Part shown: positions 10,852-43,440 of the stretch, piece after piece
Layout of the letters: each line of letters starts with the position of its first letter
How positions within the stretch are numbered: the stretch's first letter is position 1
DNA from: a virus
Reading direction: 5' to 3' (one strand)
Virus record (IMG/VR): IMGVR_UViG_3300037130_000238
Location: 1-43,440 of that record
Length of the DNA stretch: 43,440 nucleotides
Program-made: the position numbers and the translations under genes
Notes under the pieces: generated by a model
Told to the model about the DNA's origin: nothing
Seen by the model: only the letters and a program-made list of their open reading frames with translations
The model's database searches: none

Positions 10852-10865
10852 GGTGCACAAACTTG

Positions 10866-13638: not shown

Positions 13639-13644
13639 CGCGCG

Positions 13645-14031: not shown

Positions 14032-14053
14032 CGGAAACCCTTTCTTCTGCTGT

Positions 14054-14083: not shown

Positions 14084-14110
14084 GGGGTTGGGTCAGCACA
14101 CGCGAACGCG

Positions 14111-16540: not shown

Positions 16541-16608
16541 TACCACACACCTTTCCGGCGGATGCGCATATAGCGAGGATCGCGCCCCATCCTATAGAGA
16601 GAACCGCC

Positions 16609-16662
16609 GCGCGGAGCCGCTGTGCAGAGTGAAAAGAGTTTCACCGCACAACAGCTCCGCGC
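16609..16662. promoter_or_regulatory. Long three-part hairpin before the protease-capsid gene
   Basis: Paired arms in order: GCGCGGAGC (16609-16617) with GCTCCGCGC (16654-16662); TGTGC (16621-16625) with GCACA (16646-16650); GTGAAA (16629-16634) with TTTCAC (16639-16644); AGAG loop on the plus strand. Twenty base pairs in total, broken by symmetric small internal loops. It fills the 135-base gap between the ChaB-like gene and the fusion gene. No T run follows, so RNase III-type processing or mRNA protection is more likely than termination. Confidence 0.7.
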
Positions 16663-16675
16663 GCGATGCTTTGGA

Positions 16676-17095: not shown

Positions 17096-17109
17096 GGCGG
17101 TCATTCTCC

Positions 17110-18006
17110 TTATGCGGCTGTGATCGAAAGGCCATAGCTGCGCAGCAGCGCGCGATCGCCCTCGGTCGGTTTCAAGAGATCCTCGCTGACGTACGGCACA
17201 ACGAGGCAATGGCAGTTGATGGTGTTCTCCGCGGATCCGGAAGGATCGCGCGGGTACTGCAGCTTTTCTCCGGCAACGAGGAAGGGATCGCCTGGCCTCC
17301 GGATTTGGCCGTCGGCGAGCTCGTGGCTGATGCGCGGCACGCGCGCAATCGGAACATGCTTCCACATCTTCTCGACCTGCGGATGATGCGCGGCCATGGC
17401 ATTGATGCGCGCCACCGATGCCAGCGACTGGATGCGCAGGATCTCGTTACTGGCGATCGACAAAGCGCGCTCCGCGATCGGCGCGAACATCCCGGAAAAC
17501 TCGCCGCCTTCGAGAGCGCCGCCGATCTCGGCCGTCAGCTGCGCCAGATCCATCCGCCCCAGCCACGCGCGCTGCAGCGCCGCGTTGATCTTCGCCGCCG
17601 AATCCCGCGTGAGTCCGCCGATCAGATCCGCCGTGTAGCCCTGCACCACCTGCAGCGCCGCTGTATCGATCACCGGCTGCACCAGCACGCCGCCCGTGCC
17701 GGCCGTCACCGTCGCGTCCACCTGCACCGCCGTCTTGCGGTAGACGTCGGCTTCCATTTTCCGAACCTCGGCCGAAGCCGCGTCGCTGAACTGCTGCATC
17801 GCGTTGTCGACCTGGCTTTTCAGCAGCGCAAGCCGCGCCGCGGTGTAACTGGAGGGCGCGGTGCGGGCGACGTCGGCGAGGATCTCGCGGCTCAGATCCC
17901 GGAGCAGCGCGAGGATCCTGCGCCGCGCTTCCGGCGCGAGCGCGTCCGCCTGCTGGGTGAGCAGGTCGAGCTGTGCCGCGTAAGCCTGGGCGCGCGTGTC
18001 AGCCAT
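17110..18006 (-). CDS. Mu gpF-like (SPP1 gp7-like) minor head protein
   Basis: 298 residues. The C-terminal ~90 residues carry the signature of the Mu F / SPP1 gp7 domain: MWKHVPIARVPRISHELADG, then the glycine/proline-rich GDPFLVAGEKLQYPRDP and NCHCLVVPYV. The N-terminal part is helical. The protein is a few-copy head protein acting at the portal, perhaps in DNA ejection. It follows the portal gene directly (TGATG overlap at 18006), as gene 30 follows 29 in Mu. Confidence 0.85.
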   Translation of the reverse strand: MADTRAQAYAAQLDLLTQQADALAPEARRRILALLRDLSREILADVARTAPSSYTAARLALLKSQVDNAMQQFSDAASAEVRKMEADVYRKTAVQVDATVTAGTGGVLVQPVIDTAALQVVQGYTADLIGGLTRDSAAKINAALQRAWLGRMDLAQLTAEIGGALEGGEFSGMFAPIAERALSIASNEILRIQSLASVARINAMAAHHPQVEKMWKHVPIARVPRISHELADGQIRRPGDPFLVAGEKLQYPRDPSGSAENTINCHCLVVPYVSEDLLKPTEGDRALLRSYGLSITAA

Positions 18007-19754
18007 CAGTTCACCAGGGTCCTCTCCTCACCCTCGTCCAGCAGATCGCTGTCCGGACCCCTCCCGGCCGCGTCCTTCGGATTCGGCGATCCGGGATTCG
18101 CGATGCGCCCCAGCGCTTTCGCCAGCGCCGACTGCGGGAAGAACTGATCCTGCTGCTTCGCGGCGCGATCGTCTTTCTCCTGCTGCGCCGCCTCGTATTC
18201 CTCGGCCGAGTCCGGAATGTCGACGCCGATCTCGGCGAGCACGGTGTGGAAGGCGCGCGCGGCCGTCTGGCCTGTAACCCAGCCGGCCTGCTGTCCGGCC
18301 TGCAGCGCGACCGCCACGCCCTGCAGCGTTTGCGCGCCCTTCTCGAGATCCTTCACCGCAATCTCGGGAAACTCGATGTTGAAGCTCAGGTCCACGCCCG
18401 CGGGCAGCACGCCGGCCAGCTGCGCCCGGTCCAGCGCAAAGTTCAGCATCGCGGTCACAATGCGCGAAAGCTTGTTCTGCCGCCCCTGAATCTTCTTGGT
18501 GAACGGCGCATTCATCTCCAGAGCCGAAGCGCGATTCGCGTCGTCGCCATCGCCCAGCAGCATCATCGGAATGCCGGCGCCGCCGGTGCCGTACTTCTTC
18601 ACCATCGCCGCGCCGGCTGCCATGTCCGCGCCTTTGAAGTCCGGTGTCTTCGCCTCCACGCTCACGCGCTCGTTGGTCACCAGCACGCCGCCCTGGCGCG
18701 GCGGATCCTTCGTGAGCTTGTTCTTGTATTCATCGGTCTTCTTGTCGTCGGCGCCGCTCAGCACGTAATGCCAGACGAAGGAATTCAGGAAGCGCACCTT
18801 GTCGCCGAAGTCGAAGATCATCTGGTCGAACAGATCGATCCAGTCCGCCAGCGCGAACAGATCGCTGAATCCGCGGCTCGCGCTCTTGACCTTGTTGATG
18901 GCGAAGTAGTAGCACTCGCCGTTCAGCCGGCCGAAGGTGGCCGACTGCGGATCCTCGTCGCGGCGGATCAGCAGCATCGGCTTCTGCAGCACCTCGCCGA
19001 CCTCGCGGCGCAGGCGCACGGCGTAGGGCACGTTGATCGACGCGGTGCCATCGGAGGTGGCCATCTCCGCGAACTGGATGGTGTCGATGTTCATCGGATC
19101 GATGTAGCCGTTGCGCACCTTGCCGTTCACCGGGTTCACGGCCACCGGGATGCACATCTCGCCGAAGATGCTCAGCTCGTCGGAGTAGCTTTCCAGCTGC
19201 TCGTCCATGTTGTTGACTTCGTCGTTCCAGTGATCGTCGATCACCTGCTGCACGCGCGGATCCACGGCCGTCACGCGCACACCCTTGCCCAGCGTGTACT
19301 CGCGGAAGATTTCGATGATGCGTTTGCCGAAGGGCGTGGTGACCGCGAGGAAGTAGCACACCTGCAGCATGCGGTCGTGCATCAGCGGATTCAGGTCGCG
19401 CAGCGTCGCCAGCGACGTAATGCGGCGGAAGCCGGGATCCTCGCCGTCGCCGGTAGTGAGCGTGAAGAGTTGCGGCGCCACTGCCTCGGCCGCCAGCCGC
19501 TCCTGCTCGGTCAGCTTGCCCACGGTGAGCATCTTCATCGCCGCCGACATCAGCGTCACATCGCGATCGCTGAGCTTGCTGGTGTCGACGCCGCCCTTCG
19601 CGAGCAGCGCTTTCGCGCCCGACTCGGCCGCCACCGCGCGCGCTTCTTCCCACCGCTTCGCCTCGTCTAGGTTCAGCATCGTCAGACTGTTGCGCTCCGC
19701 CAGACTGCGCTGGCGCGAGAAGATCGTTTTGAGTGTCTTTGGGATCAGGCCCAT
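18006..19754 (-). CDS. Portal protein
   Basis: 582 residues. Typical portal features are present: a long alpha/beta core with RMLQVCYFLAVTTPFGKRII, YSDELSIFGEMCIPVAVNP and DPMNIDTIQFAE, the middle YGTGGAGIPMMLLGDGDDAN, and a C-terminal helical crown ending in a charged tail. The portal ring is the DNA channel of the head. It lies between large terminase and the F-like protein. AAGGAG lies six bases before the ATG, which overlaps the terminase stop by ten bases. Confidence 0.88.
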   Translation of the reverse strand: MGLIPKTLKTIFSRQRSLAERNSLTMLNLDEAKRWEEARAVAAESGAKALLAKGGVDTSKLSDRDVTLMSAAMKMLTVGKLTEQERLAAEAVAPQLFTLTTGDGEDPGFRRITSLATLRDLNPLMHDRMLQVCYFLAVTTPFGKRIIEIFREYTLGKGVRVTAVDPRVQQVIDDHWNDEVNNMDEQLESYSDELSIFGEMCIPVAVNPVNGKVRNGYIDPMNIDTIQFAEMATSDGTASINVPYAVRLRREVGEVLQKPMLLIRRDEDPQSATFGRLNGECYYFAINKVKSASRGFSDLFALADWIDLFDQMIFDFGDKVRFLNSFVWHYVLSGADDKKTDEYKNKLTKDPPRQGGVLVTNERVSVEAKTPDFKGADMAAGAAMVKKYGTGGAGIPMMLLGDGDDANRASALEMNAPFTKKIQGRQNKLSRIVTAMLNFALDRAQLAGVLPAGVDLSFNIEFPEIAVKDLEKGAQTLQGVAVALQAGQQAGWVTGQTAARAFHTVLAEIGVDIPDSAEEYEAAQQEKDDRAAKQQDQFFPQSALAKALGRIANPGSPNPKDAAGRGPDSDLLDEGEERTLVN

Positions 19755-21358
19755 CGGGTGCTCCTTCCGCGCTGAATAAATTCCCTGCCGCCGCGGCTTT
19801 TGCCGCTCAGCACTTCGCGGCCTTCCTGCGGGTCGCGGCCGCCCGCCTGCGCGTTCGAAGAGGACATGGCCGCTTCAGCGCCGCTGTCGGCCGCGTGTTC
19901 GGCCAGCGCGGCCGCCCAGAATCGGTCGGCGTGCGCGAACACCTTGCGCTTCGCTCCGCCGGCCACAGCCGACTCCAGCTCGATCCGCGGCGCATCGAAA
20001 GTCACGCCGGTGGACGTCGCTTCGCGCTTGATCGACTGCAGCTCGACCCGCACCTGGTTGTCGTAGGGGATGCGGAAATGCGCTGCTTCGAGTACGCGCT
20101 TGAACTTCACCGCCAGATCCACCTTCATGCGCACGCCGTTGTCGTTCGTGCCGCCGAAGCTCACGCCCATCAGCTTGCCGCCGTTGGTCTGATCCAGCAG
20201 ATCGTAGAGCGCAATGCCCATGCCGGTCGAGTCGATCGCGGTGCGCGTCGTCATGCGCACCCACGGATCGAGCGTCTCGTACTGCTTGGGGAAGGGGTAC
20301 GCGTGGAGCGGCAGCACAAGCCGCGTCATGCGGATGTCGCCGATCCGCTCCACCATCCACAGCACCGTCTGATCGTGACTGCGCGCCACGTCGATCCCGG
20401 AATACAGCGCGCCGCGCGCCTCATAGCCGGCGGGCCAGCCAACGGTGGCTCCTGAGTCCTCTGCCTGCTGGATGAGCTCGATCGACAACCACGCGCCCGT
20501 CGCCTTCAGGAACGCGCAGCAGAACTCCTGCGCCCAGGTGTCGGCATCCTTGATGCCTTCCCGCATCTCGTCGATATCGATGGGGCAGCCGTCGGCGACC
20601 GCCATGTGCACGTCGATCCAGTGGCCGGTCCACGGTCCCTTGCGAATCGGATTCGGCGACGGAGCCACGCCATCGGTGAGGCCGAGATCCTTCGCGAGAT
20701 CGAAGAACTTGCCCTGCTCGCCGTTCGGCGTCGAGAGCACGTCGAGCCGATTGCCCAGCGCCACCTGGCGGAAGATCGCCGCCCAGATCGCGTAGCTGTC
20801 CATCTGGTGAGCGAACTCGTCGAGCACCGCGTCGCCGGGATAGCCGCGAGCCGTGCGCGGGTTGGCAGCCAGCGCCATGATGCGGCTGCCATTCGCGAAC
20901 TGAATGCGCTGCACGAGGAAGTCGGTGGCGCTGATGTCGTCCTGCCAGCGCTCGGAGTACACCTCCGACACCGCGCCGATGGCCTGAATGTTCTTCTTGC
21001 AGGTATCGACAAACTCCGTCGACTGTGCCTGCGAGGGCGATAGCACCGTCGTCGTCGAGCCCGGCCGCTCCAGCCGCCGGAAGATGTGATCGACGCCGGT
21101 GGCGTAGGAGTAGCCGATGCGCGCGGACTTCACCGCCAGCTTGAAACGCGTGCCGTCGTCGAGCCAGCGCTGCTGATACGGGCGCAGCTGGATCACCGGC
21201 GGCAGCTGGCGGTCGAAGGGAACCACTTCGACGCGCGGCCGCGATTCAGGCTGCTGCGGGGCGCGGCGCGGGACCGATGCCGAAGACGCGCTCGCGGATG
21301 CGATTGATGTCGTCGGCGGTGAGGGCTTGCCCCTTCGTGATTTTCTTTTCTGCGGCAT
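19745..21358 (-). CDS. Large terminase subunit (Mu gp28-like)
   Basis: 537 residues. ATPase part: LAVKSARIGYS (about 74-84) stands in place of Walker A and, as in Mu gp28, departs from the consensus; Walker B is AVLDEFAH (about 177-184); LDVLSTPNG is the coupling region. Nuclease part: YSGIDVARSHDQTVLW (Asp about 323) and TAIDSTGMG. It packages DNA by the headful mechanism in Mu relatives. The ATG at 21358 overlaps the small subunit gene by 113 bases and gives a basic, low-complexity N-terminus; GGGAG precedes it. A later GTG near 21225 would start right before the conserved part. Confidence 0.85.
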   Translation of the reverse strand: MPQKRKSRRGKPSPPTTSIASASASSASVPRRAPQQPESRPRVEVVPFDRQLPPVIQLRPYQQRWLDDGTRFKLAVKSARIGYSYATGVDHIFRRLERPGSTTTVLSPSQAQSTEFVDTCKKNIQAIGAVSEVYSERWQDDISATDFLVQRIQFANGSRIMALAANPRTARGYPGDAVLDEFAHQMDSYAIWAAIFRQVALGNRLDVLSTPNGEQGKFFDLAKDLGLTDGVAPSPNPIRKGPWTGHWIDVHMAVADGCPIDIDEMREGIKDADTWAQEFCCAFLKATGAWLSIELIQQAEDSGATVGWPAGYEARGALYSGIDVARSHDQTVLWMVERIGDIRMTRLVLPLHAYPFPKQYETLDPWVRMTTRTAIDSTGMGIALYDLLDQTNGGKLMGVSFGGTNDNGVRMKVDLAVKFKRVLEAAHFRIPYDNQVRVELQSIKREATSTGVTFDAPRIELESAVAGGAKRKVFAHADRFWAAALAEHAADSGAEAAMSSSNAQAGGRDPQEGREVLSGKSRGGREFIQRGRSTRWA

Positions 21359-21965
21359 CCATCTCCCGTTCGAACTTTTTGCGCTTCAGCTCGGCGTCCT
21401 TCTCCATCTGCGCCAGCTTCCGCTCATCCATCGCGACCTTGCGTTCCTTGATCGCGTTCTCCCGCGCGCGCTGCATCATCTCAGCCAGACCGAGCAGCGC
21501 CCCGGCCGCCGCCATGCGCCCCTTCGGCGAGGCGTCCTCGGCGAGGACGGAAAAAATCTGGTCGCGCGCAGCATGCAGCACAGCCTCATCGTCCTTCGTC
21601 ACAACCGATTTCACGAAGGCCGCGGCGATGGTGCGCGCCTGCTCCGCGCGCGCCAGCGTCTCCGCCGTGACCTGCGTCACGCGCAGGTCGTACCAGCGGT
21701 GCAGATTTGTGTGCGGCAGCCGGCGCCCTGGAAACAGCTTGCGCACGGCGGGATCGAGCTTCTCCCAGTCGACGAAACCGGCGCGGCCCTGCGCCCACTT
21801 CTCGCTGTAGGCCAGCGAGGAAATCTCCTCGATCTCCTGCCACGTCTTGCCGCGTGCGTTCTTCAGGTACTGGATCGCATCGCGCGTTTCGGGCGGCAGC
21901 TGATCGATCTTCAGCGGCTGCTGGCGCTGGCGGCGATCACCCGTCCTGGCTCTCGTTTTGGCCAT
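21246..21965 (-). CDS. Small terminase subunit (DUF3486, Mu gp27-like)
   Basis: 239 residues. It opens with KIDQLPPETRDAIQYL and KTWQEIEEI, has an FPGRRLPHTNLHRWYDLRV segment (helix-turn-helix-like), a long helical middle, and ends GQALTADDINRIRERVFGIG, all typical of the DUF3486 family that recognises packaging sites in Mu-like phages. It precedes the large subunit as gene 27 precedes 28 in Mu. Starts with an ATG at 21965, three bases after the stop of the wHTH gene. Confidence 0.85.
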   Translation of the reverse strand: MAKTRARTGDRRQRQQPLKIDQLPPETRDAIQYLKNARGKTWQEIEEISSLAYSEKWAQGRAGFVDWEKLDPAVRKLFPGRRLPHTNLHRWYDLRVTQVTAETLARAEQARTIAAAFVKSVVTKDDEAVLHAARDQIFSVLAEDASPKGRMAAAGALLGLAEMMQRARENAIKERKVAMDERKLAQMEKDAELKRKKFEREMDAAEKKITKGQALTADDINRIRERVFGIGPAPRPAAA

Positions 21966-21968
21966 CGG

Positions 21969-22295
21969 CTAAAACTCCAGGGCGGGATCCCGCGGGCGAT
22001 TCTCTTCCACCTGATCGCGGCCCGCCGGCGTCAGCTCGATCTTCTCCAGATACACGCGGCCGGTGAACGAATCATGGCGCTGCACGTAGCGCACGTAACC
22101 GCGGCCCTCCAGATCCTGAAGGATGGTGACCGCGTCGCTGATGCCGATCTCAAAAGCAAGCGACTGCAGCGCGTGGGTCACGCCCACATCGTCGTATCGC
22201 GAAGCCTGCACGTTGTGACGAGCCCGAAGCAGAAGCAGAATCTGGCCCCTCAGCCGTCGGCTACGCTCCGGCGTCAGGTCAGTGAACATGGTCAT
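21969..22295 (-). CDS. Small winged-helix protein (VpaChn25_0724/Mu gp26-like position)
   Basis: 108 residues with RRLRGQILLLLRARHN, VGVTHALQSLAFEIGISDAV, LQDLEGRGYVRYVQ and a beta wing, ending IELTPAGRDQVEEN. That is the outline of the winged-helix proteins found just before the small terminase in Mu-like phages. It may help terminase or DNA recognition. Overlaps the upstream membrane protein gene by 17 bases. Confidence 0.65.
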   Translation of the reverse strand: MTMFTDLTPERSRRLRGQILLLLRARHNVQASRYDDVGVTHALQSLAFEIGISDAVTILQDLEGRGYVRYVQRHDSFTGRVYLEKIELTPAGRDQVEENRPRDPALEF

Positions 22296-22758
22296 CCCCC
22301 GAAGAAACAGTTTCGATCTTGAGTTTTCTGGCGATGCTGTCGAGTGTGGCTTCCGTGCGCATCTGCCGCCGATGGATCCGGTCCATCTGCTGCGCCGTGT
22401 AGGAGCTCAGCGTCTGGATCTCCTGCAGCTGCCGGTCGTCTTTCTGCGCGATCGCGCTCATCGCCTCCGCCATCTGGTGTTGCGCCCGCGCGCCCTCGCG
22501 CTGGATCTCCACCATCCGCTCCAGCTGCGCGCCCAGGATCATCACCACCACCATGGCGATGAAGAAGTTCGGACCCCACGCCTGCAGCAGGGCGAACGCC
22601 TGCTTGGGATCGCTCTCCAGAACGCGCCCCACGACCAGGAGAACCGCCGCGACGCCCACCCCGCCGAAGACGACGTTGACGTACCGCACCCACCCCGACC
22701 GGAACCCGATCCGGACGTCCGTTCCCGACTCTCCCCCGCCCTGCCGCAATCCGAACAT
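22279..22758 (-). CDS. Membrane-anchored coiled-coil protein (DUF2730-like position)
   Basis: 159 residues from the ATG at 22758 (GTG starts at 22767 and 22773 are possible). Two hydrophobic segments, VNVVFGGVGVAAVLLVVGRV and FFIAMVVVMILGA, then a charged helical tail (QLERMVEIQREGARAQ, IHRRQMRTEATLDSI) that could form a coiled coil. Mu gp25 (DUF2730) has the same size, membrane-plus-coil layout and position. An i-spanin or holin-like role is the alternative. Confidence 0.5.
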   Translation of the reverse strand: MFGLRQGGGESGTDVRIGFRSGWVRYVNVVFGGVGVAAVLLVVGRVLESDPKQAFALLQAWGPNFFIAMVVVMILGAQLERMVEIQREGARAQHQMAEAMSAIAQKDDRQLQEIQTLSSYTAQQMDRIHRRQMRTEATLDSIARKLKIETVSSGDDHVH

Positions 22759-22775
22759 TTTCCTCACACCCACCC

Positions 22776-22834
22776 AAAAAACGGTCTAACCGCAAGACTG
22801 TAATTCTCGACGCTATTTTTCCCGCGCATTACAG
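22776..22834. promoter_or_regulatory. Control region before the terminase/head operon
   Basis: CTGTAAT (22798-22804) and ATTACAG (22828-22834) form an inverted repeat with a 23-base centre, a possible regulator site. On the minus strand CGGT-TAG-ACCG (22792-22782) is followed by six T (22781-22776), a very short terminator-like hairpin. This is the best place for a second late promoter, because the gap between the HNH gene and the membrane protein gene is one of the few wide gaps in the leftward operon. No convincing -35/-10 pair was found. Confidence 0.35.
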
Positions 22835-22857
22835 CCCCGCTGGCGAGCCCGGTTTCT

Positions 22858-22882
22858 TTTCCGGACCCCCAGTACCCGGAAA
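22858..22882. promoter_or_regulatory. Hairpin after the HNH nuclease gene
   Basis: TTTCCGG (22858-22864) pairs with CCGGAAA (22876-22882) over an 11-base loop, about 65 bases past the HNH stop. No T run, so a processing or weak termination role is only possible. Confidence 0.4.
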
Positions 22883-22945
22883 CGCTCCTGCAGCCTCCCA
22901 GCGCGATTTCCGGCGGTTTCGGGTTTTCCGGGTTTTGCCTGGCTT

Positions 22946-23620
22946 TCACGGCAGCACCCCGGTCCGCTTTCCACACGCGTACCAGTCCCCCGCGATGCAC
23001 TGCTGGGCGTCGGCCAGCGGCAGCTTCCCGGCACAGACCTTCCGGTGCAGCGCGTTTTCGAGTTTGTCTTTGGTGTGGAAGCCGATCGTTCCCGGCGCAT
23101 CCACCGGCTGCGGCCACAGGTTGCGGTCGTCATTCGATCCGCCCAGCTCGATCGAGATCAGGTGATCGATCTCGTAGTCCTTCCCCGGACAGCCGCTCGT
23201 CTGGCCGTACGCCGCGCAGATCCGCTTCTTCTGGCTTTCCGTCACATTGCGCTCGTCGCGCGTGTGGAAGCTCCGCGCGCACAGCGTCTCCTTGCTCAAC
23301 TGCGCATCTACCTCACCGGGCGTCGCCCGCAGATCGTTCAGCACCGCGGCGCCGTCATGGCGATAATGGGCGGCATCGTCGGACTGGATCGCCACGCTCC
23401 ACGCCGCCGCATACGCATCTTCGGCGCGCGCCACCGCAGCCCGATACGCGGGATCGCGAAAGGCCTCGGGCGGAGCGGTGTACAAAGCCAGAAATCGATC
23501 CTGCGCCGCATGAAGCCGATCGGTCGCCGACTGCGCCAGCGCCATCGCTGCGGCGCCCGCCGCGGCAAGAGCCAGCACCACAGCCGTCCGGATCCATCGC
23601 GATCGAGCTTTCTGCGTCAT
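22946..23620 (-). CDS. Exported HNH-type nuclease
   Basis: 224 residues. A basic start (MTQKARSRWIRT) and hydrophobic stretch VVLALAAAGAAAMALA ending AQS look like a signal peptide or anchor. The C-terminal half has YEIDHLISIELGGSNDDRNL followed by WPQP, the His-Asn core of a beta-beta-alpha metal nuclease (His about 153, Asn about 167). Six cysteines outside the leader suggest disulfides and an extracytoplasmic location. It lies in the lysis module, its ATG at 23620 not overlapping others but its neighbour 77-residue gene ending at 23617 overlaps it. Possible jobs: degrading host DNA at lysis, or blocking incoming DNA in the periplasm. Confidence 0.7.
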   Translation of the reverse strand: MTQKARSRWIRTAVVLALAAAGAAAMALAQSATDRLHAAQDRFLALYTAPPEAFRDPAYRAAVARAEDAYAAAWSVAIQSDDAAHYRHDGAAVLNDLRATPGEVDAQLSKETLCARSFHTRDERNVTESQKKRICAAYGQTSGCPGKDYEIDHLISIELGGSNDDRNLWPQPVDAPGTIGFHTKDKLENALHRKVCAGKLPLADAQQCIAGDWYACGKRTGVLP

Positions 23621-23850
23621 GCCGCTGGGTCCCTACTCGCCTCCGGGGCGGAGCTGGTTGACTCCGCCCCTTCGGCCTTCGCGTTTGGGTTATGTCCGCG
23701 CAGCTCGTCGACCAGCTGCGTCAATCCGTTCGGATCGCCGTACAGCGCCTCGGCTCCCACCTCCGCGGCGGTGTGCTGCTCCTCGGCCGTGCCATCGCCA
23801 CCGGTCGCCCAGTCCAGCACCTTCATCCAGGCCGGCTCCGGTTCAGGCAA
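23617..23850 (-). CDS. Small acidic hypothetical protein
   Basis: 77 residues, Glu/Ala-rich, with WMKVLDWATGGDG near the start and a disordered Ser/Ala C-terminus. No membrane segment or known motif. It is coupled to the HNH gene by an ATGA overlap at 23617-23620 and overlaps the upstream gene by eight bases, which supports expression. Function unknown. Confidence 0.5.
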   Translation of the reverse strand: MPEPEPAWMKVLDWATGGDGTAEEQHTAAEVGAEALYGDPNGLTQLVDELRGHNPNAKAEGAESTSSAPEASRDPAA

Positions 23851-24100
23851 CGCCGATCATTCCTTTCACGCGCGACTGAATCAGCGCGACGGGGACCAGC
23901 ATCGGCTTCTTCTCCACCGTGAAGGTGACGATCGCCGCGTCCATGACTCTCGCGACCTTGTAGCTCAGCACGACGCCGCTCGTCTCGGGCAGCGTTCCGG
24001 CCTCCAGCGCGTCGGGGCCATAGCCGGAGTCCTTCAGCTTCGCCGCCATGGCGTTGAACTGATCCTTGTTGAGCTTCAGCGTGAACGTGGCGAACCCCAT
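23843..24100 (-). CDS. Small hypothetical protein of the lysis module
   Basis: 85 residues, alpha/beta, with FTLKLNKDQFNAMAAKLKDS and TFTVEKKPMLVPVAL. The ATG overlaps the stop of the holin-like gene (TGATG at 24100). No family recognised and no membrane segment seen; its job cannot be inferred beyond its place in the lysis block. Confidence 0.5.
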   Translation of the reverse strand: MGFATFTLKLNKDQFNAMAAKLKDSGYGPDALEAGTLPETSGVVLSYKVARVMDAAIVTFTVEKKPMLVPVALIQSRVKGMIGVA

Positions 24101-24942
24101 CAGAAGCCTGCCTGCGCTTCATACGCGAAGTACTGATCCACGGTCACTGGCCGAGTCAGGCCAAGGTCCCGCGAGATCCGGTCCGCGTTCAACGCCATCT
24201 GACGCTGATCGAGCAGAGGCCGCACTTCCGCCAGATGCACGGTGACGTTGCGGCTCATGGCCGCTACCTGCGCCTTCGAACTCACGCCCTCGACCAGCGC
24301 CAGCAGCGAATTGACGATCGTCGCGATGCCGTTGATCGCCGTGGTGGCCTTCTGCTGGCTGTTCGGATTCGTGATCTTCACGGCGTTCAGCAGCGCGGTG
24401 TTCACGCTGTTCTGTAGCTGAACGATCAGCGCCTGCAGCACCTGAATCGTGGTCTGGTTCGGATTCGCCAGGTAGTTCTTCGCGGCGGTGGTAATCTGCG
24501 GCGCCAGCGCGTTGATGATCGCCAGCGACGGCGTGACGATGAGCGCCGCGGACGGATCCAGCACTTCCACCAGACCGCCGGCCGTGTCGATTGCGCTGGT
24601 GAGCGCCGGCGTCCAGTTCACGATCTCCTGCGCGACGTTCACCTTCTGTTGCTGCGTGCAGCCGATCACCGGAGCGAACACCATCGTGACGCAGAGCAGA
24701 GCGATCATCGCGGCCGTGCCTGCGCCGCCCGTCGACCCGCTGCCCGAGCTGGAGCCGGGATCCTTCGCCAACAGACCGAGGAACCCGGTGGCCATCGCGC
24801 CGATCAGCGCAACCACGGTTCCCGTGCCGGCGTGGCCGAGAGTGATGCCCTGCTGCGAAAGCACGCCCACCACAATCCCGACGGCGATCAGCACACCGGT
24901 GATCGACGTCTTCGGGTGCTGCCAGATATTCGAAAGGTTCAT
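24100..24942 (-). CDS. Holin-like membrane protein fused to a lipoprotein-type domain
   Basis: 280 residues. Two hydrophobic helices (about 13-30, TGVLIAVGIVVGVLSQQG; about 40-60, TGTVVALIGAMATGFLGLLA) and a Gly/Ser linker resemble a small holin. A third segment MIALLCVTMVFAPVIGCTQQ has the look of a lipoprotein signal with lipobox VIGC. The remaining ~185 residues are helical and could span the periplasm. There is a Met just before the lipobox segment but no good ribosome site, so a single fused chain is preferred. It stands next to the endolysin gene, as holins do. Confidence 0.5.
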   Translation of the reverse strand: MNLSNIWQHPKTSITGVLIAVGIVVGVLSQQGITLGHAGTGTVVALIGAMATGFLGLLAKDPGSSSGSGSTGGAGTAAMIALLCVTMVFAPVIGCTQQQKVNVAQEIVNWTPALTSAIDTAGGLVEVLDPSAALIVTPSLAIINALAPQITTAAKNYLANPNQTTIQVLQALIVQLQNSVNTALLNAVKITNPNSQQKATTAINGIATIVNSLLALVEGVSSKAQVAAMSRNVTVHLAEVRPLLDQRQMALNADRISRDLGLTRPVTVDQYFAYEAQAGF

Positions 24943-24954
24943 ACACTTTCTCCT

Positions 24955-25461
24955 TTAGGCCGCCGCTTGCTCGGCCTGCGCCGGCGGCAAGGGCGTCAGG
25001 TCATACTGCGTGAGGTCGTAGTCGCGCATCAGCTCTTCGAGCTGCGCGGCGTACCGGGGATTGGTGCTGTAGCCGCAGGCCTGCAGGCGCTGGGCGAAAG
25101 CAACAGGATCGTTGCGCACCGCCATCGCCGATGCGTAGCGCGGCGCGCAGCTCAGCAGGCGCGCGTGCGCGCCGAAGCACAGCGGAGCATTCGGGTAGCG
25201 AACGAACGGCGCCAGCACATGGCGCGGCTGCCCGTCGATGAATTCCGTGGTGGGCATCTCCACGTAGCTGTCGGGCGCGGCATGCGCGCCGGGCTTGATG
25301 CCGAAGAAGTTCAGATAGTCGGTGGCGAGCTTCGACTTGCCCCAGCCGCTTTCGAGAATGGCCTGTGCGATCGTGACCGACGCGGGCACGCCGAATTTAC
25401 GCTGGCCATACTGCGCGGCCGGCACAACCATCCTCAGGAATTCGCTTTGCGCGGCGTTCAC
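24955..25461 (-). CDS. GH73-type endolysin (N-acetylglucosaminidase)
   Basis: 168 residues, starting at GTG 25461 with GAGGGG five bases upstream. VTIAQAILESGWGKSKLA carries the probable catalytic Glu (about 37); FFGIKPG, FVRYPNAPLCFGAHARLL and ACGYSTNPRYAAQLEELM are the other standard blocks of FlgJ/Auto-type GH73 glucosaminidases. It would cut peptidoglycan glycan strands at lysis. No signal peptide is seen, so release depends on the neighbouring holin-like protein. It is the first gene after the hairpin-rich gap at 25462-25690. Confidence 0.85.
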   Translation of the reverse strand: MNAAQSEFLRMVVPAAQYGQRKFGVPASVTIAQAILESGWGKSKLATDYLNFFGIKPGAHAAPDSYVEMPTTEFIDGQPRHVLAPFVRYPNAPLCFGAHARLLSCAPRYASAMAVRNDPVAFAQRLQACGYSTNPRYAAQLEELMRDYDLTQYDLTPLPPAQAEQAAA

Positions 25462-27989: not shown

Positions 27990-28354
27990 GTCGCCGCACT
28001 CCGAGTTCTCGCAGCGGCATAGCCATCCGAAAGGCGCTTGCCAAATCCATACACCGTTCAAAGAGGACGAGGGCTGACATCGCGTCGGCGATGACATCCG
28101 TTCTTGGGATCCGGATCACGGTGCTCATGCTGAACGACTACACGGCAGCTTCCCACTTGGCCCACCGCTGGCCAGCGGAATTCGATATCGCATTTTGCCT
28201 CGCCGTCGATGACTGGCAGTTGCTTCACGCCCGTGTTAAGGCCGCCGGATTTCGCATGATCGGCCCGGAGGAGGAGCGGTTCATCTCCATCGGGAAAGCG
28301 TTCCTGCAGGCATCCCAAGCGGAACGTTTCCTGTCCAAAGAGGCCGCCCGATGA
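27986..28354 (+). CDS. Early protein, paralogue 2 (possible DNA-binding)
   Basis: 122 residues. IRKALAKSIHRSKRTRADIA, LGIRITVLMLNDYTA and WPAEFDIAFCLAV match the previous protein position by position, so the two come from a tandem duplication. Coupled to it by ATGA at 27986-27989, and to the transposase by ATGA at 28351-28354. Helix-turn-helix-like; exact role unknown. Confidence 0.6.
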   Translation: MSRRTPSSRSGIAIRKALAKSIHRSKRTRADIASAMTSVLGIRITVLMLNDYTAASHLAHRWPAEFDIAFCLAVDDWQLLHARVKAAGFRMIGPEEERFISIGKAFLQASQAERFLSKEAAR

Positions 28355-30216
28355 GCGCGGTTCCGAAGCTTCTTCCCTTCAGGTCCGCCGGCGAATCGGC
28401 AGCGCTCTCCCTGCCGCACGATCCCGCCGGCGTGAGCCCGGCAGCGGTTGGGGAACCTGCTGCCGGAAGAGCTGCCCTGATCGATGCCCACGATCGGCAG
28501 CAGGCGCGTGAGCGGCTGGCCGCAATTCAGCCGCTCCGCGATTTCGACGCCAATCCCAGCCTCTACGCCTGCACGCGGGAAGAGCTCGTCGAACGCCTCT
28601 GCGCCGAGCATGACGTGAGCCGCAGAACGCTGCTGCGCTGGCAGAAGCGCTATCGCGAGGGCGGAGAGCCGGCGCTGGCCGATTTCGAGCGCAGAGACAA
28701 AGGCGAATCGCGCTGGTTCAGGCAAAACGAAAAGGCCGCGTGGGCCGCCGCGTATCTCCACCTGCATTGCCGCCAGAGCGCCCGCGCGGTCTACGAATCC
28801 CTGATCGCGGATCGCGGGCTGTACGGAATCGAAGAGCTGCCCAGCTACCAGACGGTGCGCGCCTTCCTCCGCTCCGCTCCTCCTTTTCTGCACGCCTACG
28901 CGATCGAGGGCCGCCGCATTTATCACGAGCGCATGGCCCCATACGTGAGCCGCGGCTACACCGATGTCGCGCCCAACCAGATCTGGGTCTCCGATCACGC
29001 CCTGCACGATGTCATCGTGCGCAACGATTGCTTCCCCGAGCTCGAATACAACGCGCGCATGCGACTGCGGATCACGCAGATGCTCGACTTCCGCAGCCGC
29101 TACAGCGTCGGGGCCAGCTGGTGTCCGGAGGGCAGCTCGCGGTCGATCGCAACGGCCCTGCGGCGCGCCATTGCGGCGTGGGGACCCTGCAGCCACTTTT
29201 ACTGCGACAACGGCAAGGATTATCTGAAGGTCGCGCGCGGCGCGGTGCCGGCATGGATGCGCGATGCGGAAGAGATTCGCGGCTGGCACGAACGCGAGAT
29301 GGCGCACATCGAGCGCGTCGGGATCTTCGCGCGGCTCGGCATCCGCGTCACCCACTGCATCGTGCGCCACCCGCAGTCCAAGCACGTCGAGCGTTTCTTC
29401 CGCACCATGCATGAACACTTCGACCGCCGCTGGCACCAGCACTACACCGGCGGCGCGCCCCACCTGCGGCCCGATGCCACCTCGGCCGCCATGATGGAGC
29501 ACGACAAGCTGCTGCGCCACGGGCGCGGCAACGCTTCAACGCTGCCCACAGCCTCCTTCTTCATCGCGCTGGCCATGGAGTGGATCGAGGAGTACAACCA
29601 TCGCCCGCACGGCGGACGCGGCATGCAGGGGCGCGCTCCCTTCGAGGTCTTCGAGGATCGCGCGCTGCAGACGGGCATCGACCCGGACTCGATGGCGCTG
29701 CTGCTGGAAGAGCACCGCCGGCTGAAGGTGCGCGAGTGCGCGGTGGAATGGACGCCGGTGCCGAAGGGCGGCAGCCGCCGCTACACCTTCTTCGACGACG
29801 CGTCGCGCCAGCAGCTGCACGCGCTGAACGATACCGAAGTCGTGGTTGCGTTCGATCCCAACGATCTGGACGCGGTGGCGCTGCTCGACAATTCCGGCCA
29901 CTTCCTCACCTGGGCCAAGCCCGAGACGTATCTGCGCATGGATCCGAGCGATCCGGAGACGCAGAAGAAGATCGCGCAGTCGATGAGCGACCGCCGCCAC
30001 CTCGAAAAGCAGACGCGCGGCGTGCTCGAAGTGATTGCGCGCAACGCCCGCGCCATCGGCGCGCGCACGCCGGTCGAGGCTCTGGCCGAGCGCACCTCGC
30101 TGGTTCCGGTCATTGAATCCGCCCTCACGCATCGTTCCCCGAAACCCAAACCGCAGCCGGACGCGAAAGCGCCCATGACCGCCGCCGAGATCGCAACGGC
30201 CTTCTGGAGAGACTGA
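28351..30216 (+). CDS. MuA-like DDE transposase
   Basis: 621 residues. N-terminal HTH part (about 75-105: REELVERLCAEHDVSRRTLL), then an rve/RNase H core with the DDE triad Asp 215 (WVSDHALHD), Asp 286 (FYCDNGKDY) and Glu 347 (QSKHVERFF), a beta-barrel domain (about 440-520) and a Lys/Pro-rich C-terminus ending AEIATAFWRD. In Mu the A protein binds the phage ends and carries out strand transfer, and its C-terminal tail contacts B and ClpX. It is followed three bases later by the B-like gene. This is the gene that defines the element as a transposable phage. Confidence 0.95.
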   Translation: MSAVPKLLPFRSAGESAALSLPHDPAGVSPAAVGEPAAGRAALIDAHDRQQARERLAAIQPLRDFDANPSLYACTREELVERLCAEHDVSRRTLLRWQKRYREGGEPALADFERRDKGESRWFRQNEKAAWAAAYLHLHCRQSARAVYESLIADRGLYGIEELPSYQTVRAFLRSAPPFLHAYAIEGRRIYHERMAPYVSRGYTDVAPNQIWVSDHALHDVIVRNDCFPELEYNARMRLRITQMLDFRSRYSVGASWCPEGSSRSIATALRRAIAAWGPCSHFYCDNGKDYLKVARGAVPAWMRDAEEIRGWHEREMAHIERVGIFARLGIRVTHCIVRHPQSKHVERFFRTMHEHFDRRWHQHYTGGAPHLRPDATSAAMMEHDKLLRHGRGNASTLPTASFFIALAMEWIEEYNHRPHGGRGMQGRAPFEVFEDRALQTGIDPDSMALLLEEHRRLKVRECAVEWTPVPKGGSRRYTFFDDASRQQLHALNDTEVVVAFDPNDLDAVALLDNSGHFLTWAKPETYLRMDPSDPETQKKIAQSMSDRRHLEKQTRGVLEVIARNARAIGARTPVEALAERTSLVPVIESALTHRSPKPKPQPDAKAPMTAAEIATAFWRD

Positions 30217-30218
30217 CC

Positions 30219-31220
30219 GTGGAGAGAAAGAGATCACGCCTGAAACCGATGCGGCAGCAATCGCTGGCCGCGACGGCGCCGGAGCGCGAGGCCGCCATCG
30301 CGCGGGCCAACGACTACATGGGACGCACCGGGCTGTGCGTCGTCGACTTCGCCCGCCGGATCAATTACTCGCCGGTCACGCTCCGCTTCTTCCTGAAGAA
30401 TCGCTACGACCATGTCGGCGGTGACGACACGCACATCCGCCGCGCCATCGACGCCTGGATGGCCGCGCATCCGGTCGAGGCGTCCACCCAGGTGGCGGGC
30501 GAGCTGTACGACACCGCCAACACGCGGCTGATCCGCGCCACGTTCCAGAAGCTGCTGCCGCGCCCCGTGGCGTACATGATCTACGCGCCGCCGGGATCGC
30601 AGAAGACGTTTGGCCTCGAGAACGAGGTCGCGCGGCTGAACCGCGAAGAGCTGAGCCGCAACGGGCACGGCCGCCGCGCTTTCTACGTCTACGCGCGGCA
30701 GAACCTGCGTTCGCGCGATCTGATGCGCCGCGTCGCCGTGGCCTGCGGGATCCACGCCACCGCCGAGATCGACCGCATGCTGGCGAATCTCCGCTTCGAG
30801 TTCCGCGGCCGCCGCGTGCTGCTCGTGGTCGACGAAGCGCAGCATCTCGATCTCGACGCCTTCGAGACGCTCCGCGAGTTGCTCGACCAGCCGCCGCACA
30901 TGAGCCTGCTGCTGGCCGGCTCGCACGACCTCAAGGAGAAGTTCGACCGCTTCTCCGCGACGCTGGAGCAGTGGAACTCGCGCATCATCGCCAAAGTCCG
31001 GCTGCCGGGCCTCGAACGCGCGGAAGCCGCCGGCATCATCCGCCGCGAAGTCGGCGATCTGCTCGACGCCATGCCCGCCACGGCCGCCGAGCGCAAGACG
31101 GATCAGCTGATCCGGATGGCCACCACCAGCGACGCCTTCGAGAAGGGGCGCACTTACATCAACGTCCGCACACTGACCAACGCGCTGGCGCAGCTGCGCG
31201 GCGCCCAGGAGGAAGCATGA
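30219..31220 (+). CDS. MuB-like AAA+ target-selection ATPase
   Basis: 333 residues from a GTG at 30219 with GGAGA about eight bases upstream. A HTH-like N-terminus (LCVVDFARRINYSPVTLRFF) matches the Mu B layout. Walker A is APPGSQKT (about 123-130), Walker B VLLVVDEAQH (about 200-209), followed by a sensor-1-type LLLAGSHDL. The protein would form filaments on target DNA, give target immunity and activate the transposase. Coupled to the next gene by ATGA. Confidence 0.92.
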   Translation: MERKRSRLKPMRQQSLAATAPEREAAIARANDYMGRTGLCVVDFARRINYSPVTLRFFLKNRYDHVGGDDTHIRRAIDAWMAAHPVEASTQVAGELYDTANTRLIRATFQKLLPRPVAYMIYAPPGSQKTFGLENEVARLNREELSRNGHGRRAFYVYARQNLRSRDLMRRVAVACGIHATAEIDRMLANLRFEFRGRRVLLVVDEAQHLDLDAFETLRELLDQPPHMSLLLAGSHDLKEKFDRFSATLEQWNSRIIAKVRLPGLERAEAAGIIRREVGDLLDAMPATAAERKTDQLIRMATTSDAFEKGRTYINVRTLTNALAQLRGAQEEA

Positions 31221-39535: not shown

Positions 39536-39566
39536 CATCCTGATCCTCTTCGCGCGCGCGTGAGGA
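39536..39566. promoter_or_regulatory. Inverted repeat before the fibre gene
   Basis: Within 39535-39570 TCATCC pairs with GGATGA and, in a shifted register, ATCCTC pairs with GAGGAT around a CGCGCGCG centre. GAGG in the 3' arm is the likely ribosome site of the fibre gene, so the fold could limit its translation. Confidence 0.35.
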
Positions 39567-39573: not shown

Positions 39574-42500
39574 ATGGTGCGTCGCCTCCTTCCGGCCTTC
39601 CTCTGCCTCCTGAGCTTCACCGCTTTCGCGCAAACCGGCTATGTGACGATGACGGCGGCCAACCTGAGCGATCAGAGCGGCAGCGGCGCGCTCCTCTCGA
39701 ATGCGACGGCGACGTTTTGTCTCACGAACGCCGCCGGAACGCCGATCGGCGTGCACGTCGGATCGAGCGCCGGCGGTCAGGCGGCGCCCCGCTGTTCGTC
39801 GGGCCCGGTGAATAACGGCGCGCTGGTTGGGACGTGGCAGACGGCCGACCCCACCGCCGCGGGCACGAATCTGGTGCCGGATCCGGCCTTTACAGCCGCA
39901 CTGGGTACAAACTGGACGAATCCGTCGACGACGACGACGCCTCCGGTACACAGCGCCGAATGCGATACGATGCCGTCCGCGCCGCATACCACCGTCTCGT
40001 GCACCGTGACTGGACTGCTCGGCGGCGAGACCGTCATCCTGAGCACACTTAGGCTAGGCAACCCCACAGTGATCTCCCTGACGGACTCGGCCGGTCAAAC
40101 GCCGGTCGTGTTCCACACAGACGTTTGGGCTCCCAACGCCTACGACGGATATGTGTTATCGAATGCGAGCGCCGGTTCGCACACCTTTACTCTGACGGTG
40201 GCAACGGCGGTGACCTATCTGGGCCTGCGCGCCGATGTCTTCTCGGGAACGCCACTGGCAAATCCAATCGACGCGTTCAGCTGGAATAACGCCAACTGCT
40301 CGGGTACTACGGTGAGTGGGTCACCGGTAACGACGACCCTGGCCAACGAGACCGTATTTGCATGGGGAGACGCGAGCAGTTCCACGGCGCTGACCGCGGG
40401 ATCGGGTTACACCCTCTATCCGCAATCTGGCGGCGGCCCGAGCGATTCAGCCGGAGAGACGATCGCCGCAACGTCGCCCGGAGCAGTGACTGCCTCGTTT
40501 GGCCAGTCTGGCGGGAACCTTTGCGCGGTCAGGACCGTTGCGCTGAAGCCGCTGCTGCCATGGCTGATTGCTAACACCGGTTCGCCGCAGGCGGGGCTAA
40601 ACTATCTTGCGGCCGGATCGTCTGCGAGCGGGACGAACGCGTATTCGCAGTCAGACGCGATTACGACGATTCCGGGGCAGACCTACACGTTCGGGGGGTA
40701 TATCAACGCCGTCGGCGTCACCGCTGGGAGCCTTTATTGGCAGGTGTGGGCCCCGGGTCCGGGGACGCAGTTGGGCGCAGCCGCAGCCACGCTGGGCGCG
40801 GCGGGCTATTACATTGTCCAGTTCACCGCCCCGGCGGGGGTGACATCCGTTCTGGTGCGAGCTGTGATCAACTCGCTGGCGATTACGCCCGGTGACACAG
40901 CCGCATTCGCGGAGCCGCTGCTGCAGGCCGGCAGCGCGCGGCTCGTCGATACCAACCTCAGCAACCCGCAGAATCCGTGCGAGGGGCTCACGATCACCGA
41001 CAACGTCAGCGGCAGCGTCCTGCTGGGCGGACCGGGATCCGGCTACACCTGCCTGCAGCCGCAATGGACGGAAAGCGCGCCGATGCCCTGCGTCGCCGGC
41101 GTCTGCAACCTTGACGGCTATATCCCGACGACTACTCCTGGGGTGATGCAGGTCTCCGGGATCGCCGGGCCAGTGGGTCCGGCAGGTCCAGCGGGGCCAG
41201 CGGGGCCTGCGGGGGCGTCGTCGGGGTTGGTTTGGGTCAGGCCGGAGAACTATGGCGCGAAGGGCGATCTCAAGAGGGTCTTCGACGCCTTCACCGTCAT
41301 GCCGGGAACGAGCAACTATTCCTCCGCGGTCGCGTCTCCGCTGGCGGTCACGGCGAGCAGCAATGACGTTGTCGTGACCTGGTTTGACTACTACGGAACG
41401 TGGGGCACCACACCGTCTGCCGGAACCTCGCGGATCAACGTCGCCGCCGTCTCTTCTTCCTATGGCGGCCTCGTCTTCGATCAGACCATCGCTTCGCCGC
41501 AAACGGTTGCGGCGGTGACGGGATCGATCACGGCGCAAAATGGCTGGACTTCGGGGCGGCTCGTATTGAAGCCCACCACAGGCCAAACGATTACCTTTGT
41601 TGGCGCGAGTGACGTGCAGAATTCCTCCGGCAGCAGCTCGATCACGGTCAACGTCCCCAGCGGGGTCGCCAATGGCGATTTCATGCTGGCGTGTGTGACG
41701 GTTCCCAATGCCGGGAGTTTCGTCTCCATCACCGCTCCCGGAGCCTGGGGAACGCAGGAGTATGTGCAGTACGCGCTGCCTAATACCGGGGCATCCCCGG
41801 ACACGGGGATACACACAGCTTGCTGGACCCGCACAGCCTCCAGCGAGCCGTCCAGCTATACCTGGACGGAGTCCAACCCCTATTTCAATTTCGCCTTTAT
41901 CGTTGCCTATCGCAACGTCGCCGGAATTGATGGAAACACAACCGCGAACCAGCTGCAATCGTTCTCCAGCACCTCGGCGGCCGACGTTGGAAAGCGCCTC
42001 TGCCTGCAGAAATCCACTTCGGCGTCCAACGGCATGGGGCAAACCTGCGGCACGATCACGGCCTACAATCCGGCGTCGAGCGGTCTCGGTTCCGTCACCC
42101 TCAGCTTTACTCCGGGTACGCTCGTCTCCGGCGTGGAAGCAGTGTACGCGTCCGACGACTATCCGGATTTTCACACGATGCTGAGCACTGCGCCCTGCGC
42201 CATTCCAGGCCCGGGGTGCCATGTCTACCTATCTTCAAAATACGGTCTCAGCAGCGGTCTGGCGCTCGCGCAAGGCAACCTCGCGTTTGCCATGAGCGGG
42301 GACGGCGCCGGAATGCCATGGAGCGCGAACGATTTCCTTTCCGGTGTGCTGCCTCAGGACAGTGGCACGCAACTTGTATTTCTCACGACCTCGCTTTCTT
42401 CGTCAACTCCGGGGCTGCTGGTCAGCGGCGGCTCGACGTTGAACAGCAGCCTTGCGAATGTTGAGCTGGATCGTTTTTCCCTCATCGGTGGCGCGGGCTA

Positions 42501-43440
42501 TAACGGTGATGGAGCCGGCGGCGACGGTCTGGACGCGCTGAATTGGCAGGGCGTCAAGATAGAAGGAGTCCAGATTGCAAACTTTGCGGGGAATGGGTGG
42601 CTCCTGGATGGCATATCCGGACCGCCCTACTCCTACACCGAGAACACGGTGTTCGATTTCGGGATCATCACCCTGAACCATGGAGCCGCGATTAAAACGG
42701 GCTCGAATGCCCCCAACATCGAGACGATCGCGGTCACCAATTCAACGATCGAAGGCAACGGAGGACCTGCATTCAATATCGCTAACCCTGGCGCGGTGCA
42801 GGGTCTGCGAATCGATAGCAACACGATCCAGTGGAACAATCGAAACGCCGCTGCGGCTGAGATCACGCTGGCTGCGACGGGGCAGATCACAGGCTGCAAC
42901 ATTCGCGGTAACTACTTCGAAGTCGATTCGGTCTTCGGGAGCCACAGTAACGCCGCCGTGACGAACGTCGCGTCGGCCATCGGCTGCGAGTGGGGAAATA
43001 ACAAGAACTTCATCCAACCCTCCACCAACAGCCAGATTCCTCGTTACCTGATTTTTTCGGCTGCAGGCACGCCCCTGCCGTCATGCTCTGCGAGCAGCGC
43101 CGCGCTGAGTGAAAGCACGGCGTATGTGACCGACGCTGCTGCCTGCACGGTGGGAACGTCCTACACTGGCGGCGGCGCCGCCTCAACCACCGCAACTTTC
43201 AGCAGCAGTTCCACCACGCTGACTGTGGCTTCCGGGACGGGGATCGTGGTGGGCCAGATCGTCACGGGCACCAATATCGCAGTGCTCAGCACTGTGACCA
43301 ATGTCTCGGGAACGACGATCACCATCAGCCCCGCGACGACCGGCTCCGGGTCGGGGTCTGCGGTCAGTTTTGGATACGGCTGTAAGGTCGCCTGCCGCAA
43401 CGGAAACTGGACCAGCACAGGGTATCCGTTCGCCTACTAA
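39574..43440 (+). CDS. Giant fibre: signal peptide, collagen-like linker, interrupted beta-helix
   Basis: 1288 residues. MVRRLLPAFLCLLSFTAFAQ is a textbook signal peptide with an AFA-Q site, odd for a tail fibre. Then come beta domains (to about 520), a collagen-like run of Gly-Pro-Ala triplets (about 529-548), WVRPENYGAKGD, the start of a pectate-lyase-like beta-helix, an inserted beta module (about 570-800), DVGKRLC and the rest of the helix (to about 1170), and a Thr/Ser-rich end with SSSTTLTVASGTGIVVGQIV. It may be a tail fibre placed apart from the tail operon, or a surface protein made by the lysogen. The stop TAA is the last codon of the window. Confidence 0.7.
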   Translation: MVRRLLPAFLCLLSFTAFAQTGYVTMTAANLSDQSGSGALLSNATATFCLTNAAGTPIGVHVGSSAGGQAAPRCSSGPVNNGALVGTWQTADPTAAGTNLVPDPAFTAALGTNWTNPSTTTTPPVHSAECDTMPSAPHTTVSCTVTGLLGGETVILSTLRLGNPTVISLTDSAGQTPVVFHTDVWAPNAYDGYVLSNASAGSHTFTLTVATAVTYLGLRADVFSGTPLANPIDAFSWNNANCSGTTVSGSPVTTTLANETVFAWGDASSSTALTAGSGYTLYPQSGGGPSDSAGETIAATSPGAVTASFGQSGGNLCAVRTVALKPLLPWLIANTGSPQAGLNYLAAGSSASGTNAYSQSDAITTIPGQTYTFGGYINAVGVTAGSLYWQVWAPGPGTQLGAAAATLGAAGYYIVQFTAPAGVTSVLVRAVINSLAITPGDTAAFAEPLLQAGSARLVDTNLSNPQNPCEGLTITDNVSGSVLLGGPGSGYTCLQPQWTESAPMPCVAGVCNLDGYIPTTTPGVMQVSGIAGPVGPAGPAGPAGPAGASSGLVWVRPENYGAKGDLKRVFDAFTVMPGTSNYSSAVASPLAVTASSNDVVVTWFDYYGTWGTTPSAGTSRINVAAVSSSYGGLVFDQTIASPQTVAAVTGSITAQNGWTSGRLVLKPTTGQTITFVGASDVQNSSGSSSITVNVPSGVANGDFMLACVTVPNAGSFVSITAPGAWGTQEYVQYALPNTGASPDTGIHTACWTRTASSEPSSYTWTESNPYFNFAFIVAYRNVAGIDGNTTANQLQSFSSTSAADVGKRLCLQKSTSASNGMGQTCGTITAYNPASSGLGSVTLSFTPGTLVSGVEAVYASDDYPDFHTMLSTAPCAIPGPGCHVYLSSKYGLSSGLALAQGNLAFAMSGDGAGMPWSANDFLSGVLPQDSGTQLVFLTTSLSSSTPGLLVSGGSTLNSSLANVELDRFSLIGGAGYNGDGAGGDGLDALNWQGVKIEGVQIANFAGNGWLLDGISGPPYSYTENTVFDFGIITLNHGAAIKTGSNAPNIETIAVTNSTIEGNGGPAFNIANPGAVQGLRIDSNTIQWNNRNAAAAEITLAATGQITGCNIRGNYFEVDSVFGSHSNAAVTNVASAIGCEWGNNKNFIQPSTNSQIPRYLIFSAAGTPLPSCSASSAALSESTAYVTDAAACTVGTSYTGGGAASTTATFSSSSTTLTVASGTGIVVGQIVTGTNIAVLSTVTNVSGTTITISPATTGSGSGSAVSFGYGCKVACRNGNWTSTGYPFAY

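Follow-up and report, generated by a model that had tools for sequence, protein, structure and literature searches.

An apparently phage-borne family of fibre-like proteins with export signals and paired cysteines, found in a Mu-like phage of a probable acidobacterial host and in tailed phages of other types

The 43,440 bases of DNA analysed here, called the window, make up a complete virus record in IMG/VR (IMGVR_UViG_3300037130_000238), which ends at its right edge in a gene for a large fibre-like protein. This open reading frame (ORF; 39574..43440, + strand, 1288 residues) begins at an ATG upstream of which its frame offers no alternative start, and its stop codon, TAA, forms the last three bases of the record. 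The protein is most probably exported, and it belongs to a family whose members nearly all combine a Sec signal peptide with paired cysteines. That it is a tail-fibre or receptor-binding protein, exported through Sec, oxidised in the periplasm and mounted on virions at or after lysis, is a reading to which we give a little better than an even chance. The gene has the following parts.

39562..39565, + strand: Shine-Dalgarno-like GAGG, 8 nt 5' of the ATG
39574..39630, + strand: predicted Sec signal peptide, residues 1-19 (MVRRLLPAFLCLLSFTAFA), with cleavage before Q
39622..39630, + strand: apparent recombination joint at the signal-cleavage codons, where the nearest relative changes
39631..39828, + strand: first half of the conserved family N-domain, residues 20-85, with Cys49 and Cys74
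39829..40602, + strand: inserted beta-rich domain 1 and a low-confidence linker, about residues 86-343 (AlphaFold2 model)
40603..40935, + strand: inserted domain 2, a beta-sandwich like those of carbohydrate-binding module (CBM) families 4/16/22, about residues 344-454 (AlphaFold2 model)
40939..41151, + strand: second half of the N-domain, residues 456-526, with core cysteines 469, 493, 506 and 511
41167..41214, + strand: short collagen-like stretch (GPVGPAGPAGPAGPAG), residues 532-547
41248..43440, + strand: C-terminal module of receptor-binding type, with a beta-helix-like start (NYGAKGD) and a Cys-rich end

Over the part shared with a 92.6%-identical relative, the ratio of nonsynonymous to synonymous substitution rates (Ka/Ks) is 0.34, so that the ORF is a real gene under purifying selection; a spurious ORF was rejected. 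The product opens with two arginines, a hydrophobic core and AFA^Q, which is the n-h-c layout of a signal peptide with an AxA-type cleavage site. Signal calls were made with a simple scorer of our own and by eye, and the scorer was positive for 15 of 17 family members, as against 2 of 117 other proteins of at least 300 residues from the same phages. Twelve loci that the scorer called negative (L143, L145-L152, L154, L159 and L166) have clear signals by eye and were moved to the signal-bearing group ahead of the parity count described below, while two were kept outside that group: L122, which bears a signal by eye and has tandem N-domains, and L163, whose signal codons lie in another frame. In L163 these codons, at ~9,980, are out of frame with the rest of a 1666-residue member and stand beside an A6 run; the break is either a sequencing error or a phase-variable switch. 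The signal is kept in nearly all members that have the core cysteines, despite complete turnover of its sequence. In the window protein, where the preliminary description of this gene had noted it, the signal looks real and used, and export of a fibre-like protein, which that description had also recognised as such, is odd for a tailed phage.

Further evidence comes from the cysteines. The complete mature proteins of signal-bearing members contain even numbers of them, ranging from 6 to 36, and the mature chain of the window protein has 22. When members were clustered (60% identity over 60% of the shorter length) and counted after removal of the signal, the number was even in 35/35 unmixed signal-bearing clusters (P=2.9e-11 under a coin-flip model), one further cluster being mixed (9, 8, 9). 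Other long proteins of the same phages with at least three cysteines, taken as a control, gave 8 even and 12 odd counts, and the signal-less family members have 5, 5, 5, 6, 7, 7, 10 and 11. Median cysteine content is 1.80% in signal-bearing members, 0.85% in signal-less ones and 0.68% in other proteins. Because the last viral scan used patterns that contained cysteines, the association of cysteines with signals among its matches arises partly by selection; parity is not biased by these patterns. Within the N-domain the count is even, 4 or 6, in 33/33 members. The pair at alignment columns 113/153 is jointly lost in two members, columns 81 and 98 are occupied in 11 and 11 members, and C30/C55 becomes C28/C57 between subfamilies (-2 and +2 residues, with the sum constant), as would a disulfide joining antiparallel strands. 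By these patterns the N-domain cysteines are gained and lost in pairs, like disulfides, and oxidation of the mature chain in the periplasm is very probable, since its cysteines come in pairs. In the window protein the predicted pairs are C469-C493, C506-C511 and C49-C74.

The hydrophobic N-terminus might instead be a vestige, or an uncleaved peg for tail assembly, on a protein that folds in the cytoplasm. Such a non-working signal would agree with standard tail-fibre biology, cleavage is predicted here from sequence, and the signal-less members show that the domain can manage without a signal. However, the evenness of all 35 unmixed clusters and the paired gain and loss of cysteines call for an oxidising compartment, and the signal is kept although its sequence turns over completely. 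We regard this explanation as improbable.

Gene slots, modular C-termini and a sister clade whose C-termini are those of known tail fibres point to a role in the tail, as does, with modest scores, the fold of the N-domain. Scanning with the whole protein led to a siphophage (L002/G001) whose gene is 92.6% identical and lies on the tail strand, between the tape measure protein (TMP) gene and that for Dit, with a distinct signal peptide (MKRWIPGALAALLLLPCAFA). Four further related siphophages (G002, G003, G006 and G007) carry a signal-bearing member in the same TMP-Dit slot, as does, without a signal, prophage G266, and members also stand behind TMP in L051 and L128 (with signal) and in L115 and L118-L120 (without). 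In contractile phages (L158, L160, L164 and L172), the baseplate wedge genes are followed by a run of one to three fibre-like genes with signals; two or three such Cys-rich genes lie behind the baseplate at L164:9941-17996, L158:9965-18882, L160:6990-11425 and L172:5371-12487, and one gene among them encodes 42 cysteines. Small signal-bearing members were also seen at L145:9884-10861, L140:9929-10792 and L155:9935-11659, places unexpected for tail fibres.

Six Mu-like relatives of the window phage were compared: at the same right-end slot G013 has a similar signal-bearing, collagen-like protein, and each of the other five has a member of the family. These right-end proteins bear a signal in G008, G012 (two copies) and G013 and lack one in G009-G011. 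The window copy lies outside its own tail operon, and likewise the copies in its Mu-like kin; the preliminary description was thus right that the gene stands apart from the tail operon on the opposite strand (late genes at 1401-25461 on the - strand, fibre gene on +), and similar proteins, for which it had proposed a survey of prophage ends, were found at this slot in other Mu-like phages. A second small exported protein (~128 residues) is encoded after the fibre in a siphophage (G003 30753-31139) and in a Mu-like phage (G008 40673-41059). It has the pattern ...LGDVxVNALE...GPLVVGxAW.LLDP, the mature parts being 55% identical and the signals different, and a distant relative is found in Burkholderia phage vB_BpP_HN02.

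After the last two viral scans the family comprised more than 60 loci, the count in viral contigs being 63. Its distribution bears on the suggestion, made in the preliminary description, that the gene is cargo at the phage end, and on the related possibility of a host surface adhesin acquired there. The position at the edge of the record, the signal peptide and the CBM-like domain are what such cargo might show, but the relatives carry a member at the same slot (five of six Mu-like phages, with a similar protein in the sixth), siphophage copies lie in the tail operon and contractile ones behind the baseplate, and just 4 of 396 Acidobacteriota genomes contained a match, three in or beside phage-like genes and one as an isolated fragment. 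A search of four Acidobacteriaceae genomes gave no family member, and a GTDB scan with the first N-domain alignment gave no matches because the patterns from that alignment were too narrow. The family looks phage-borne, and host cargo is a very improbable account of the gene.

All-against-all comparison revealed that it is mainly the N-domain that members have in common, their C-termini being mostly unrelated; CBM-like, LamG-like, SGNH/GDSL and beta-helix-like modules occur among the latter. By this comparison, phages of several tail types have the N-domain module in common and vary the C-terminal modules joined to it. The N-domain matched no known sequence family in profile libraries, and a tblastn search with the N-domain alone against 50,697 phage records returned chance-level matches only. 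AlphaFold2 predicted a beta fold for a relative with an uninterrupted N-domain (mean predicted local distance difference test score, pLDDT, 80). The best viral Foldseek matches of this model were tail fibre and minor tail proteins (probability 0.99-1.0, template modelling (TM) score 0.4-0.5), and the sole notable PDB match was the Sf6 gp8:gp14N complex (E=0.004, modest TM-score).

In the window protein the N-domain is split by two beta-rich domains that sit inside it, the second of which resembles CBM4/16/22 modules; weak CBM_4_9 matches were obtained in relatives. The AlphaFold2 model of residues 20-561 is of moderate confidence (pLDDT 62), and only the inserts were read from it. On the basis of the CBM-like insert, the polysaccharide binding proposed in the preliminary description is plausible. 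The collagen-like rod and interrupted beta-helix described there both proved weaker than stated: the former is present as a short stretch of just five or six G-x-y triplets, for which the Pfam Collagen model gave no match at E<=1 in the protein, and the latter is visible as the NYGAKGD start (residues 559-565) of a region that matched no family in profile libraries. An insert at residues 673-785 gave one weak tail-protein match by tblastn against the same phage records, and searches of the protein against Pfam, PHROGs, NCBIfam and PDB sequences yielded nothing useful.

One sister clade lacks both the signal and the core cysteine pairs, a single pair being kept in L119 and L120, while it occupies the same gene slots as the signal-bearing members. 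It forms a single branch (support 92/92), and the C-terminus of its member in G009 matches the tail fiber family phrog_11419 at 5.6e-50. The signal-less fibres are followed by a 268-residue partner (phrog_19357) in the Mu-like phage G009 (39374-40180) and in the siphophage locus L115 (12391-13197). We read signal-less fibre and partner as a second transferable cassette.

The tail-fibre evidence and the evidence for the periplasm, which consists of the signal and the cysteines, would most simply be joined by an exported fibre that attaches at lysis. Sec would carry the chain to the periplasm, the signal would be cut after AFA, and the fibre would fold there and form about 11 disulfides. At or after lysis the finished fibre would meet virions leaving the cytoplasm and bind them through its N-domain, and its CBM-like and C-terminal modules may then recognise surface glycans of the next host. 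That fibres can join completed particles in a lysate has long been known from complementation experiments with phages. Several points weigh against this proposal. Tailed phages are taught to complete their virions in the cytoplasm, which would leave attachment at or after lysis as the only route for a periplasmic fibre. Furthermore, in Mu-like phages the gene lies on the early strand, apart from the tail genes; small members (186-841 residues) are located between portal and head-protease genes in a separate group of phages (L140, L145, L153, L155 and L162); the TM-scores of the N-domain to tail proteins reach just 0.4-0.5; and, because the signal-less clade is a single branch, the joint loss of signal and cysteines was probably one evolutionary event.

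The main rival holds that the protein is exported and never enters the virion. During lysogeny or infection the phage would secrete it as an adhesin or lectin with disulfide bonds, and its targets would be glycans of the envelope or polysaccharide that has been set free, either within the periplasm or beyond it. In this way the protein could prevent superinfection, remove decoy receptors or change how the lysogen attaches, as a form of lysogenic conversion. This rival fits the same signal and disulfide evidence, the early-strand position in Mu-like phages favours it, the small members in head modules agree no less well with a separate exported product, and the second small exported protein after the fibre in G003 and G008 is in keeping with it. 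A precedent is also available in Lom, an exported membrane protein expressed in lysogens (PMC12309495). On the other hand, this rival must explain the synteny with TMP-Dit and baseplate genes, the presence in the same slots of a signal-less sister clade with tail-fibre C-termini, and a C-terminal modularity typical of host-range proteins, and nothing was seen that would hold the protein on the cell. The window protein has no second membrane segment (best 19-residue mean hydrophobicity 1.57), its signal peptide has no lipobox, and Pfam searches found no autotransporter barrel or other known anchor domain. Display on the lysogen surface, which the preliminary description had raised, therefore lacks visible means, and a surface-anchored adhesin was rejected for want of any membrane, lipid, barrel or cell-wall anchor. 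A secreted, non-virion adhesin is an appreciable possibility, though a doubtful one.

Comparison with known systems places the exported-fibre proposal in context. Fibres of tailed phages are, to our knowledge, cytoplasmic proteins without signal peptide and without paired cysteines. Tailed phages are not known to build them outside the cytoplasm, and a literature search confined to open-licence papers brought up no family of tailed-phage fibres described as exported. The family resembles such fibres (phrog_11419; Dit- or baseplate-associated) in its slots by the tape measure and Dit or behind the baseplate, in its conserved N-domain with swappable C-terminal modules and in the recognised tail-fibre C-termini of sister members, but differs in that nearly all members have a Sec signal and paired cysteines; the signal-less sisters serve as a control within the family. 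Collagen-like minor tail proteins (phrog_1806, phrog_5073) share GPA/GAT repeats with several members, most clearly that of G013, whereas the window protein has only its few triplets. Filamentous phage pIII is disulfide-bonded in the periplasm. It is a receptor-binding adsorption protein that bears a signal sequence and is directed to the inner membrane (PMC2246268), and in this respect it is similar, but filamentous virions are assembled at the membrane, tailed ones are not, and pIII has no sequence relation to the fibre described here. PblB of streptococcal prophages resembles phage tail fibres and serves as an adhesin on the cell surface. A signal peptide is predicted in one pneumococcal form; the Streptococcus mitis protein, drawn without a signal peptide, is set free when the phage lyses its host and attaches to other cells (PMC4508584). 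Its hosts are Gram-positive, it has no sequence relation to the fibre, and no family-wide export or disulfide pattern is known for it. Lambda Lom, which lysogens express from a gene between those of the tail spike and the tail fibre (PMC12309495), is likewise an exported product from among tail-tip and tail-fibre genes, and by analogy it shows that exported conversion proteins can sit in such places; it is an outer-membrane beta-barrel of the Ail/Lom family, unlike the window protein, which has no Pfam match to that family.

The window gene itself appears to be a recombinant. Over the leader and the signal codons it shares 77% identity with the Mu-like relative G008, and from 39622 to 43175 it has 92.6% DNA identity to siphophage G001 (L002), which suggests that a Mu-like phage acquired the mature part of a siphophage fibre while its own lineage's signal stayed in place. 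In an assembly chimera, a siphophage fibre would have been attached by mistake at the signal codons of a Mu-like contig. The differing nearest relatives of leader and mature part, the change-over within a short stretch common to both, and the origin of the window sequence from a single contig would fit this as well. The reading frame is nonetheless intact, the C-terminal ~90 residues differ from the donor-like gene, and other Mu-like relatives have signal-bearing fibres of their own at the right-end slot, so that a chimera is unlikely, the least probable of the explanations considered here.

The rest of the window has the following layout.

764-1231: DUF1440 gene at the left edge
1401..25461, - strand: late genes (packaging, head, tail, lysis)
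1401-4757, - strand: tail tip
6288-9650, - strand: tape measure-like gene, called from size and place
14111-16546, - strand: capsid/protease
18006-19754, - strand: portal
19745-21358, - strand: terminase
24955-25461, - strand: endolysin
26482-27519, - strand: repressor-like gene
28351..31220, + strand: MuA-like transposase and MuB-like ATPase genes (PHROGs matches)

The + strand carries transposition and middle genes, and the fibre gene is the last on it. Homologues of MuA (phrog_310, E=1e-73) and MuB (phrog_296, E=6e-23) are encoded, and the phage is therefore a transposable, Mu-like one. The DUF1440 region looks like host DNA, and imperfect tandem repeats (aaaccaggagtttttccgcaagctgtg...) occupy 300-700 of this host-like left flank. 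Adjoining the lysis genes, 22946-23620 gives a weak HNH/NS-endonuclease-like match and encodes a protein with a signal-like N-terminus. Matching of the left end, as a means of locating the right terminus of the phage, gave no convincing repeat; an end on a stop codon, as in the window, is what trimming of the record between genes would produce. Because the best relatives of the transposase in public genomes occur in metagenome-assembled genomes of Acidobacteriaceae, the host is probably an acidobacterium (Acidobacteriota). A survey of acidobacterial genomes described prophages unlike sequenced phage isolates and made no mention of tail fibres or signal peptides (PMC5900883).

An exported, cysteine-paired fibre family would mean either that some tailed phages finish their virions outside the cytoplasm or that they make an exported double of the fibre for another purpose, and each answer raises a testable question: where the last assembly step takes place, or what phages do outside the host cytoplasm before lysis. 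The broader proposition, that tailed phages of Acidobacteriota (siphovirus-like, contractile and Mu-like) routinely export their fibres through Sec, staple them with disulfides in the periplasm and complete their virions outside the cytoplasm at lysis, is put forward tentatively, at somewhat less than an even chance. The cysteine parity test can be applied to any phage protein family. Acidobacteriota are abundant soil bacteria whose phages are almost unstudied, and the fibre family offers a handle on these phages and on disulfide-hardened fibres for acid soils.

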